Of a stretch of 26,655 bases of DNA, positions 17,505-24,673 are shown in pieces. Source of the DNA: a virus; IMG/VR virus record IMGVR_UViG_3300009436_000093, positions 1-26,655 of that record. One strand, given 5' to 3'. Within the stretch, counting starts at the first letter, position 1. Each line of letters begins with the position of its first letter. The position numbers were made by a program, and so were the translations under genes. The notes beneath the pieces are model-generated. The model had not been told where the DNA came from. It searched no databases and worked only from the letters and a program-made list of their open reading frames with translations.

Positions 17505-17513
17505 CAATTGCCT

Positions 17514-17521
17514 TATAAATA
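17514..17521 (+). promoter_or_regulatory. T4-type late promoter for the gp48 operon
   Basis: TATAAATA at 17514-17521 on the plus strand, preceded by CT. Predicted start is about 17527, with a 34-base leader to gp48 at 17561. Confidence 0.85.
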
Positions 17522-17541
17522 GTCTATCTAATCTAAAGAAT

Positions 17542-17549
17542 TATTTATA
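17542..17549 (-). promoter_or_regulatory. T4-type late promoter for the gp4 operon
   Basis: TATAAATA on the minus strand (plus TATTTATA at 17542-17549). Predicted start is about 17536 leftward, 32 bases before ATG 17504. It faces the plus-strand late promoter at 17514. Confidence 0.85.
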
Positions 17550-20875: not shown

Positions 20876-21772
20876 ATGAGACAATACATCGGTAGAGATG
20901 ACTTCACTTGGTTTATTGGAGTTGTTGAAGATAGGAACGACCCAGCCCAACTCGGCAGGGTGAGAGTCCGCACATTCGGATACCACACAGAAGATAAAGA
21001 CCAGATTCCTACCGATAGTCTCCCTTGGGCGACACCAATTAATGGTGTCGATTCTGCGTCAATTAGTGGGATAGGAACATCACCAACAGGAATGGTTGAG
21101 GGGACTTGGGTTGTCGGGTTCTTTATTGATGGCGACCGAGCGCAAGAGCCTGCTATAGTCGGTACTCTTTCTGGGGCACCAAAGTCCTTGGCCGAACCAA
21201 CTCTCGGTTTCAACGACCCGAACGGTGTGTATCCGAAATACGTTGATGAGTCCGATTTAAATGGTCGTGCTCGTGCGGTTGCGGATGATACTACTGAGGA
21301 TGCTGGTAGCATAGGAATTCCTGCGTCACCATACGCTCCTGTGTACCCAATGAATCACGTCAAAGCAACTGAGTCAGGGCACTACAAAGAATACGACGAT
21401 ACAGCTGGCGTAGAAAGAATCAAAGAGTTTCACAAAAGCGGTACTCAATATGAAATCCACCCAGACGGAACTAAAGTTACAAGAGTTGTAAAGGATAATT
21501 ACTCACTAACAGCTGGTGACGACAAGTTACACGTCAAAGGAAGTGTTACTATATATGTAGATGGTGATACGAATATTACTGTTGCCGGAACTACAACTGT
21601 TGACACACCAACAACCAACTGGACTGGGGATATAAATTTGACAGGCGATTTGAATATTACTGGAACATCAACTGCATCTGGTGACCATGTGTCCGCAGGA
21701 ATTTCCGGTAAGGGTCATACGCATAAAGATACACCAGGACTTGGCGCTGGCGTGACCAGCAAGCCGCAATAG
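20876..21772 (+). CDS. gp5: Baseplate spike gp5-like without lysozyme domain, 298 aa
   Basis: Residues 1-105 form the gp5 OB-fold (DDFTWFIGVVEDRNDP, LGRVRVRTFGYH, VVGFFIDGDRAQEPAIVGTLSG). The C-terminal part (about 195-275) is a VgrG-like triple beta-helix of short repeats (ITVAGTTTVDTP, GDINLTGDLNITG). It ends with GKGHTH (H281, H283), the His-x-His pattern that binds iron at some spike tips. T4 gp5 has 575 aa with a lysozyme domain between; that domain is absent, so this spike can puncture but not digest. ATG 20876 lies after a gap of 21 bases. Confidence 0.92.
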   Translation: MRQYIGRDDFTWFIGVVEDRNDPAQLGRVRVRTFGYHTEDKDQIPTDSLPWATPINGVDSASISGIGTSPTGMVEGTWVVGFFIDGDRAQEPAIVGTLSGAPKSLAEPTLGFNDPNGVYPKYVDESDLNGRARAVADDTTEDAGSIGIPASPYAPVYPMNHVKATESGHYKEYDDTAGVERIKEFHKSGTQYEIHPDGTKVTRVVKDNYSLTAGDDKLHVKGSVTIYVDGDTNITVAGTTTVDTPTTNWTGDINLTGDLNITGTSTASGDHVSAGISGKGHTHKDTPGLGAGVTSKPQ

Positions 21773-21779
21773 GTGAATA

Positions 21780-22217
21780 ATGGCAACTAACTTTCTTGAC
21801 GAATCTGGGTTCTCGCTTAAAATTGGTGGCATGGAAATTGCTTCGAGCACCAGCGCAGGGACTATAGATGGGCAATTAGTATTTGGTGATTGGGTTATCG
21901 TCAATGAGTCTGACGAGTTAATTTTTAAACTCAATAATGTTGAGAAGATGAGGTTGAACACTTCTGGCATTGTTGGCGCCAGTAGTACTGCTCTCAACTT
22001 TGAGACCTACACATACACAGTGACTAATAGTGACACAGTATTCAGCGGTGCTGATGATTTCGGAACCACGCTCAGCTATACTGATGGCAGGGTCGGTACT
22101 TATTTGAATGGGATTAGGTTGGTCGCTAATACTGATTTTACTGCCACTGGAGGTTCTTCTGTAACTTTTCAAGAAGCTACTTCTAATGGAGATGTAGTAA
22201 CGGTGGAAACATTCTAA
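21780..22217 (+). CDS. Small fibre-like virion protein, 145 aa
   Basis: Beta-rich, Gly/Ser/Thr-rich protein. The C-terminal half contains VGTYLNGIRLVANTDFTATGGSSVTFQEATSNGDVVTV, a motif I recall in tail-fibre and virion proteins of marine phages ('YLNG..L..GTD.T.TGG..VTL'). It lies 7 bases after gp5 and ends before a late promoter. It may cap the spike or be a short baseplate accessory; no trimerisation or chaperone domain is visible. Confidence 0.78.
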   Translation: MATNFLDESGFSLKIGGMEIASSTSAGTIDGQLVFGDWVIVNESDELIFKLNNVEKMRLNTSGIVGASSTALNFETYTYTVTNSDTVFSGADDFGTTLSYTDGRVGTYLNGIRLVANTDFTATGGSSVTFQEATSNGDVVTVETF

Positions 22218-22225
22218 ATTTGTAT

Positions 22226-22233
22226 TATAAATA
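22226..22233 (+). promoter_or_regulatory. T4-type late promoter for the Hc1-gp25-gp6-gp7 operon
   Basis: TATAAATA at 22226-22233, preceded by TAT. Predicted start about 22239 gives a leader of about 79 bases to ATG 22318. That leader also holds the antisense early-type promoter at 22281-22308. Confidence 0.8.
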
Positions 22234-22280
22234 GAATGTAGTTGAAGTCATAATAGTATCATTAAAGGGGCGACACTCTT

Positions 22281-22308
22281 ATTATACTATATTATTGGAA
22301 AAAGTAAA
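22281..22308 (-). promoter_or_regulatory. Early-type promoter on the minus strand (antisense)
   Basis: Reading leftward: TTTACT (22308-22303), 16 bases, TATAAT (22286-22281) preceded by ATAG, exactly the early-type pattern. It points into the gp5 region, where no minus-strand gene follows. Transcription would start near 22274. Confidence 0.7.
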
Positions 22309-22317
22309 GGTTTTTTT

Positions 22318-22488
22318 ATGAATAATCATGATAGTTTAGTAAATTTATTTGAAACATACACAACTGAAAGCGAAAAGTTTAACTCTGGAAATAAAGCAGC
22401 TGGAACCAGAGCAAGAAAGGCATTAGCAGAGATTAGCAAGTTGTGTAAGGAAAGGCGAAAAGAGATCCAAGAATCTAAAAACGCATAA
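22318..22488 (+). CDS. Histone H1-like Hc1 protein, 56 aa
   Basis: The 56-residue product has the Hc1-type pattern: a helix with LVNLFETYTTESEKF, then GNKAAGTRARKALAEISKL followed by a basic end (CKERRKEIQ). Hc1 proteins are small nucleic-acid-binding proteins first described in Chlamydia and also present in marine T4-like phages. A 'GNKAAG.RARKAL.E' core is diagnostic. ATG 22318 has a purine-rich region (AGTAAAGG) before a T-run. Late promotion at 22226 and position in the baseplate operon suggest packaging or nucleoid-binding, but the role is not known. Confidence 0.8.
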   Translation: MNNHDSLVNLFETYTTESEKFNSGNKAAGTRARKALAEISKLCKERRKEIQESKNA

Positions 22489-22499
22489 AGTAGAGAGAT

Positions 22500-22901
22500 A
22501 TGGCAGTAAAAACTAAAAAGAAAGAAATCTTCAGTGATCTGGATTTGGGGTTCTTTGCCCATCCCGTCACTCAGGCTGTCACTCGAAAAACTAATAGGGA
22601 TTCGGTTAGGCAGTCGGTCAAGTCACTCATATTGACTGATTTTTACGAGAGACCATTTAAGTCTGATATTGGTTGCAGTATTCGTTATTTTCTTTTTGAG
22701 CATTTTACCCCAGCAATAAAACAGCAGATGGAGCGTGCCATCCGAGAGGTTATTTCAAACTATGAGCCTCGTGCGGATATTATCGCAGTACTTGTCGAAG
22801 AAAATCGAGAAGCACACGCCCTCATCGTTTCCGTAGCATTTATGATAATCAACGACCCCGAACCAGTCATCTTAGATGTCATACTAGAAAGAGTCAGGTA
22901 A
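22500..22901 (+). CDS. gp25: Baseplate wedge protein gp25-like, 133 aa
   Basis: Same length as T4 gp25 (132 aa), the lysozyme-like-named but non-enzymatic wedge and sheath-start protein. Features: DFYERPFKSDIGCSIRYFLFEHFTP, a helix, and the conserved YEPRADI (E89, P90, R91), the EPR motif that contacts the sheath initiator core. It starts 11 bases after Hc1, behind GAGAG. Overlaps gp6 as TAATG. Confidence 0.95.
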   Translation: MAVKTKKKEIFSDLDLGFFAHPVTQAVTRKTNRDSVRQSVKSLILTDFYERPFKSDIGCSIRYFLFEHFTPAIKQQMERAIREVISNYEPRADIIAVLVEENREAHALIVSVAFMIINDPEPVILDVILERVR

Positions 22902-24673
22902 TGTCAGCAAACACATACTTACAAGTATCAGAGTTAGATTTTGAAGATATCCGTTCAAATCTAAAAACGTATTTAAGCAGTCAAGATCAGTTTAAAGACT
23001 ACAGTTTTGAGGGTTCGGCTATGGCTGTTCTTCTCGATGTCCTTGCATATAATACGCACTACAATGCATATTATCTAAACATGGTCGCTAATGAGATGTT
23101 CCTAGATACTGCCCAGCAAAGGGATTCGGTAGTTTCCCGAGCTAAGGAACTCGGCTACACGCCCGTGTCATCTGTTGGCGCGCAAGCTGAAGTCAACATC
23201 AACATAACTGGCGTTGACAGTACGATATCTCAAATTACTATACCAAAGAATTCTAAGTTCACAACAACATTTGACGATGTTACTTATACTTATGTCAACC
23301 CTGCCGCCAAGAATATTCCAGTATCGACAACAGCAGGAGTATTTAGCGGAGCGTTGACTATTAAGGAAGGCGAGCCTTTGGCGCACTCTTGGACTGTAAG
23401 TGCTTCTAACCCAGTAAGGTACATTCTTCCTAATGCCGGAGTTGATACTACAAGCGTGACTGTTTCTGTTCAGGAGTCTGCCTCTGACGACACTTTGGTT
23501 GAATTCTACAGAGCTTCAGACGTATCTCAAATCTATTCAACTTCTCCAATTTATTTCCTCGAAGAAGCGTCTGATGAGAAATATGAAATCGTATTTGGTT
23601 CGGGGTCGCTTGGTAGGTCTCTGAAGGCTGGGAACATTGTTAAAGTGGAATATCTCGTTAATAATGGAGAAGCGACTAACGGTGCTGACACGTTTAGTGT
23701 AGACAGTTTGAACATAGGGGCTTCGTATACAGCAGCAACTATCACTTCTGTCACTTCTAACGCTCTTGGTGGTCGACCTCAGGAAACGGTTGATTCAATT
23801 AAATTCCAAGCACCAAGAAATTACCAAACGCAAAACCGAGCTGTTATTGCTAGCGATTATGAAAGAATCCTTCTTTCTGAGAATCCAGATTTACAGTCAG
23901 TGATTGCCTTTGGTGGGGAGCAAGCGTCTCCCGCAGTTTTCGGTAAGGTGTTTATTGCTGTAAAACCATTCGGAGAAAAGTTTGCCACTCAAAGTAGGAA
24001 GCAATCTATCAAAACATCCATTTCTGATAGAACTCCATTGGCAGTAGACCCAGTTATCATTGATGCTGACTATACATACATCATTCCCACATTAACAACA
24101 TATTATGACGTGACTAGATCTGCTTTGAATGATAGTGCGGTTGAGGTTAACGTGAGGAATGCTATCGCTTCTTTTTCTACAAATAATTTAGGAAGATTTG
24201 GTAATAAGTTGAGATTCTCTAGATTTGTCAGATCTCTGGATGACACGTCAGACGGGTTTGTTTTGAATAATGATGCGTCAATTAAAATTGAAAAAAGGAT
24301 TACACCAAATGTGAATGTGGCTGAATTGGTTTCTTTACATTTTAATAATGCCCTTCGCCCAGGATCTTTGGGGTCATCAGAGTTTACATACAGCGGCTTT
24401 TCGTCATTTTTAGGTGATGATGGTCTCGGGGTGGTTAGTATCTTCCGATATAGTGATAATAAAGAACGTGTCAACATTGTCCCTAATGCTGGAGTGATTG
24501 ACTACAAAACTGGGCTAGTTACTGTTGAGAATTTCTTGCCTTCTGCATATTCGGACTTAGAGTTAAAGGTTAATGTTGCGCCAGAGAACTTGGACATTAT
24601 ACCAGTTAGGGAGCAGATATTGCTGCTAGAATCTGGTGACGCTGTTATTAATGTTATTGGCGAGCAGACCTAA
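22901..24673 (+). CDS. gp6: Baseplate wedge protein gp6-like, 590 aa
   Basis: Gp6 (660 aa in T4) forms the inner baseplate ring with gp7 and gp53. This protein begins with helical YLQVSELDFEDIRSNLKTYLSSQDQFKDYSFEGSAMAVLLDVLAYNTHYNAYYLNMVANEMFLDTAQ and REL-like segments (SRAKELGYTPVSSVGA), then beta domains, and the baseplate-J-like core with APRNYQTQNRAVIASDYERILLSENPDLQSVIAFGG. The order 25-6-7 is that of T4-like phages. Stop overlaps the next start as TAATG. Slightly shorter than T4 gp6. Confidence 0.95.
   Translation: MSANTYLQVSELDFEDIRSNLKTYLSSQDQFKDYSFEGSAMAVLLDVLAYNTHYNAYYLNMVANEMFLDTAQQRDSVVSRAKELGYTPVSSVGAQAEVNINITGVDSTISQITIPKNSKFTTTFDDVTYTYVNPAAKNIPVSTTAGVFSGALTIKEGEPLAHSWTVSASNPVRYILPNAGVDTTSVTVSVQESASDDTLVEFYRASDVSQIYSTSPIYFLEEASDEKYEIVFGSGSLGRSLKAGNIVKVEYLVNNGEATNGADTFSVDSLNIGASYTAATITSVTSNALGGRPQETVDSIKFQAPRNYQTQNRAVIASDYERILLSENPDLQSVIAFGGEQASPAVFGKVFIAVKPFGEKFATQSRKQSIKTSISDRTPLAVDPVIIDADYTYIIPTLTTYYDVTRSALNDSAVEVNVRNAIASFSTNNLGRFGNKLRFSRFVRSLDDTSDGFVLNNDASIKIEKRITPNVNVAELVSLHFNNALRPGSLGSSEFTYSGFSSFLGDDGLGVVSIFRYSDNKERVNIVPNAGVIDYKTGLVTVENFLPSAYSDLELKVNVAPENLDIIPVREQILLLESGDAVINVIGEQT

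Follow-up and report, generated by a model that had tools for sequence, protein, structure and literature searches.

Judged from its sequence, the antisense promoter that we find just upstream of Hc1 in an uncultured virus (an IMG/VR record of 26,655 bases, the whole of which we call the window) is genuine and kept by selection. The explanation we favour, at a probability of roughly 0.47, sees it as an early sigma70-type promoter under selection that acts by convergent interference on the late promoter of Hc1-gp25-gp6. It is the sequence on which the promoter, its start, its conservation, the convergent late promoter and the recurrence of the arrangement at other late genes rest.

The antisense promoter and its start site

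The gene order of the window runs gp48-gp53-...-gp5-ORF21780, then the promoters, then Hc1-gp25-gp6 (Table 1). The gp5-like protein is only 298 aa long; it has an OB domain, but the lysozyme and long-helix parts of T4 gp5 would not fit.

Table 1. Positions of promoters, predicted transcript start and neighbouring genes in the window
Feature	Position	Strand	Remark
-35 element TTTACT	22303..22308	-	TTGACA/TTGACT in most relatives
-10 element TATAAT	22281..22286	-	ATAG directly before, 22290-22287
Predicted start G	22274	-	7 nt past -10
Conserved first 14 transcribed bases GTCGCCCCTTTAAT	22261..22274	-	consensus GTNGCCTTTAAG
Late promoter TATAAATA	22226..22233	+	faces early promoter; 41 nt between early start and box
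Late promoter TATAAATA	17514..17521	+	at transcription strand switch; probably for gp48-gp53-gp5 unit
gp5-like baseplate hub, OB domain	20876..21772	+	also in path of predicted antisense RNA
Variable gene, weak tail-fibre-like match	21780..22217	+	first gene predicted antisense RNA would cross
Hc1, histone H1-like protein (PF07432)	22318..22488	+	first gene past promoter pair
gp25, baseplate wedge	22500..22901	+	
gp6, baseplate wedge	22901..24673	+	

The whole antisense promoter (22308-22281, minus strand) reads CTTTACT-N16-TATAAT with ATAG ahead of the -10, exactly in the letters and at the coordinates given by an earlier, sequence-only reading of this DNA, and its -35 box adjoins the left side of the Hc1 ribosome site. 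The window has two copies of the pattern TTTACW-N16-TATAAT (162-189 on the plus strand and 22308-22281 on the minus strand) against 0.02 expected from dinucleotide shuffles, which bears out the view that a full match by chance is unlikely. With the sigma70 threshold loosened to 9/12, the site does not stand out, as 44 such sites were counted in the window's right half vs 30 expected. The label 'early-type' holds as well: both hexamers and the 16-18 nt spacing are common to the antisense site and the sense early promoters of the phage, and AGTATAAT with TTTACA/T upstream is also present on the plus strand near 182, 5612, 6227, 9144, 10424 and 11449, its sole minus-strand copy in the window being the antisense promoter. 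An imperfect inverted repeat (15-nt arms, 80%) covers 22253-22290, including the -10 and the early start, and is not general in relatives; likewise, a dyad or hairpin at the start, striking in three relatives (L002, L009, L010), was rejected with a mean arm of 3.44 vs 3.29 in shuffles.

As for the start, T-G stands in register in 41/41 non-redundant promoters, the G lying 6-8 nt past the -10 (mostly 7), and under a stricter test TG[TC] is in register in 37 of the 41 vs 3.5 expected. A conserved purine start at that distance is what an early promoter needs, and a 5' end near 22274, as had been predicted, coincides with the G conserved in relatives. Among the same 41 promoters, sequence information is limited to -36 to about +14 and then ends (anchoring on T-G inflates those two columns). 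We found no conserved antisense ORF, those of relatives being heterogeneous and mostly without a ribosome site, and no match in Rfam. Because conservation stops at about +14, the genes crossed by the predicted RNA differ among relatives and no ORF is conserved, selection appears to act on the promoter and the first transcribed bases rather than on the RNA body, and the earlier suggestion of a regulatory RNA acting via its own sequence is unsupported. The first 14 bases perhaps serve promoter escape or as a factor site.

That no minus-strand gene follows is true in substance: there are only mechanical ORFs without conserved sequence, and the next credible minus-strand genes start at 17507 and have a late-type promoter of their own, at 17549. 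Between these genes and the gp48 unit (17514-17549), two TATAAATA late promoters stand back to back. Transcription antisense into the baseplate operon, as the sequence-only reading had it, would apply to the upstream unit (the 21780 ORF and gp5, back to gp48) and not to Hc1-gp25-gp6.

Conservation upstream of Hc1 and recurrence at other loci

Scanning IMG/VR for Hc1 gave 80 loci with conserved synteny, and when the sequence 5' of Hc1 was printed most of them showed a sigma70 promoter, reverse-complemented, in the same place. Of 57 non-redundant regions upstream of Hc1 (window included), 45 have a minus-strand sigma70 score of 10/12 or more, 30 score 11 or more and 9 the full 12/12; a score of at least 10 is reached by 2/57 on the plus strand and by 3.2% of shuffles. 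Position matters, too, with 32 of 48 minus-strand sites scoring at least 11 falling within 100 bp upstream of Hc1 (55 loci, 422 kb). Along the gp6 tree 52 of 65 rows carry the antisense promoter, with 3 label changes; lineage members without it are L017-L020, L029, L054, L057 and L059. While spacer letters vary, hexamers, 16-18 nt spacing and start G are constant in relatives, and distant ones (gp6 ~37% identical) retain the promoter with other -10 forms (TACACT, TAATAT) at the same spacing. The boxes, on whose presence in relatives the sequence-only reading had staked its claim, are thus there when looked for, and conserved promoter, start site and position together strongly support the predicted early antisense promoter. 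In four distant relatives (L064, L067, L072, L079) the antisense -10 is preceded by a pair of -35 boxes in tandem (TTGACA...CTTGACA), and TATAAATA late boxes are absent within 80 nt. No minus-strand site of at least 11/12 was found in the 300 bp upstream of gp25/gp6/Hc1 in S-SRM01, HTVC008M, Melnitz-3, Mosig, Syn9, S-RIM32, P-SSM5 and phiM19; since these are the cultured phages and single-cell records scanned, the antisense promoter seems tied to the uncultured Hc1-gp25 lineage.

The late promoter is part of the pattern. Within 80 nt downstream of the antisense promoter, CTATTTAT, the reverse of the late promoter, is found in 23 of the 41 relatives vs 0.35 expected, and TATTTA in 29, leaving 12 with no recognisable late promoter there. 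Hence, except in these 12, the two promoters face each other within interfering distance. The early start lies 3-52 nt (median 29) from the late promoter, a variable distance next to the fixed one between start and -10. From the two positions in the window, early and late RNAs would share only ~35 nt at their 5' ends.

A further IMG/VR scan for convergent pairs (early promoter, start G and facing late promoter) returned at least 119 non-redundant contexts. Grouped by the gene behind the -35, these include clusters at Hc1 (at least 27), cytidyltransferase (at least 11), tail tube (at least 8) and sheath stabilizer (at least 2); many single matches and one 11-member non-T4 group were not counted as support. 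Several copies may share one genome: a 133-kb contig has the antisense module at Hc1, at cytidyltransferase and inside uvsW, and a 110-kb contig has it at the latter two. It also lies antisense between the genes for late sigma gp55 and Sm-like/uvsW proteins (L095, L123, L150; L168 also noted). In two different phage contigs (L470, L473, at ~1500) the module sits at the same place inside uvsW, which could be due to coding constraint or to regulation of uvsW. The promoter with its start is found in sense as well, before uvsY (L105 near 11934, L107 near 7806) and other genes, and the first ~14 transcribed bases are common to several of these sites, the sense copy before uvsY included. We propose, tentatively, that a standard module (sigma70 promoter, start GTNG...TTTAA) may be set head-on against several late operons (baseplate, tail tube, sheath stabilizer and cytidyltransferase, besides its antisense place in uvsW) as a general early lock in marine T4-like phages, holding late genes back until the polymerase switches.

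Proposed convergent interference and its alternatives

According to the model we favour, RNA polymerase would start leftward at 22274 early in infection, pass the late promoter 41 nt away and continue antisense through the gp5 unit, giving a non-coding RNA. It would be polymerase traffic or occupancy that acts, and not the RNA, i.e. convergent transcriptional interference, with footprint competition in relatives whose two sites are as near as 3 nt. Late structural genes would thereby stay quiet until polymerase switches to late promoters, after which the late promoter would dominate and silence the early one. Early transcription, an effect on late output and interference as the function are what we infer here. 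Two points make us favour interference: the arrangement is met again at late promoters of other operons, and the body of the RNA can vary freely. The idea that the late operon is silenced, raised by the sequence-only reading, has thus gained a convergent late promoter and recurrence at other late operons, yet a second reading is also live. In T4, lacking gp55 and the sliding clamp, late promoters do not fire early in any case, which calls the need for an early lock into question. Moreover, the first 14 bases are conserved beyond the needs of interference, the same start sequence precedes uvsY in sense, and the 12 of 41 relatives with an antisense promoter and no late promoter in 80 nt argue that a facing late promoter is not its sole possible role.

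The other live reading is a replication origin, since T4 oriE, equal in position and polarity, is one. In the T4 record, oriE lies in gene 5 in the (-) direction, its primer RNA is the complement of the gene 5 transcript and repEA/repEB are on the minus strand; it apparently uses an early promoter and is near a strand switch (PMC3016281). By analogy, early leftward RNA complementary to the gene 5 message would stay paired with its template, prime the leading strand and later be shut off by opposing late transcription. We regard this as the main rival, a serious model if a less likely one, and it could coexist with interference. It fits an early promoter that reads against the gene 5 message, a transcribed-strand switch near 17.5 kb of the window, conservation of the promoter and not of the RNA body (as a primer would show) and a module copy preceding uvsY, T4 oriF being ori(uvsY). 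What speaks against it is that one genome carries the module at several late operons, which is more than an origin needs. Also counting against an origin, fourfold-site GC skew does not shift across the site (mean 0.04, sd 0.11) and 21700-22330 is free of iteron-like direct repeats, both weak tests on a fragment; AT-rich sequence does not extend past the intergenic 50 nt, and searching for repEA/repEB gave only weak, chance-level RepE matches at different places and no conserved antisense ORF. So the likeness to T4 oriE/repE (around gene 5, and close to a strand switch, an early-mode promoter reads against late baseplate genes) goes along with differences: in T4 the candidate promoter (79377-79349) is inside gene 5, the RNA bears repEA/repEB and the area has 24-nt-spaced repeats, whereas in the window the promoter sits in the gp5-Hc1 gap opposite a late promoter, with neither repeats nor a conserved ORF. 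Near gene 5.4, the T4 minus strand has TCGCCCCTTTAAGGTACTATAAT (L087, 4737-4765), which is close to TCGCCCCTTTAATGATACTATTAT of the window, probably by chance; TCGCCCCTTTAAGG, a T4 stretch near gene 5.4 that resembles the start sequence of the window, was set aside since its arrangement differs and the match is probably chance.

Further alternatives appear weaker. A functional small RNA or tiny early peptide, with incidental antisense overlap, might explain the conservation of the first ~14 transcribed bases, which several sites have in common, but the end of conservation past ~+14 and the lack of a conserved ORF or Rfam match make it improbable. Highly improbable, to our minds, is that the block is a plus-strand late-leader element (ribosome site and leader motif) with the promoter match as a by-product: although it reaches on its right into the AAGG ribosome site of Hc1 and would be in the late message, hexamers, spacing and start G are kept while the spacer changes and -10 forms swap, its distance is fixed to the -10 and not to the late promoter, and the sense copy before uvsY has no late leader. 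Least credible of all is a spurious AT-rich, promoter-like sequence with no role; such sites are indeed common here at the loose threshold, but conservation and positional enrichment are far above shuffles.

Relation to known systems

Convergent-promoter transcriptional interference is a general mechanism in bacteria and phages, and our pair, facing promoters a few tens of bases apart, resembles it. We know of no case, however, where facing promoters are a repeated feature of T4-type late operons, and the literature searched gave no antisense early promoter that is conserved in position and recurs opposite late promoters of several operons. Known already are single antisense early transcripts in T4-like phages, namely oriE/repE and CfrI, the latter, from cyanophage S-PM2, being described as the first antisense RNA reported in T4-like phages (PMC2984593). 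Like the RNA considered here, which is predicted from sequence alone, CfrI belongs to a marine T4-like phage; unlike it, CfrI is ~225 nt long and antisense to psbA and a homing endonuclease gene, whereas ours would begin at structural operons and lacks a conserved body. Early and late promoters are also found together in RB49 and cyanomyoviruses, where they overlap for middle-gene expression (PMC2984593) and both serve the same gene rather than facing each other. Since cyanomyoviruses, which lack motA and asiA, combine early and late promoters (PMC2984593), cis arrangements are plausible as a means of timing.

The sequence-only reading of an antisense element is right in kind, with a timing lock or an origin as its probable function. 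As a lock, it would give the early-to-late timing of T4-like phages a cis layer besides the polymerase switch; were such a lock general, T4-type late transcription would have a level of timing that has so far gone undescribed. As an origin, the module would provide a sequence signature for replication origins, which are almost unmapped in the abundant uncultured phages of the sea. In both cases, a conserved antisense signal before several late blocks points to a shared device, be it for the timing of late genes or for starting DNA copying.
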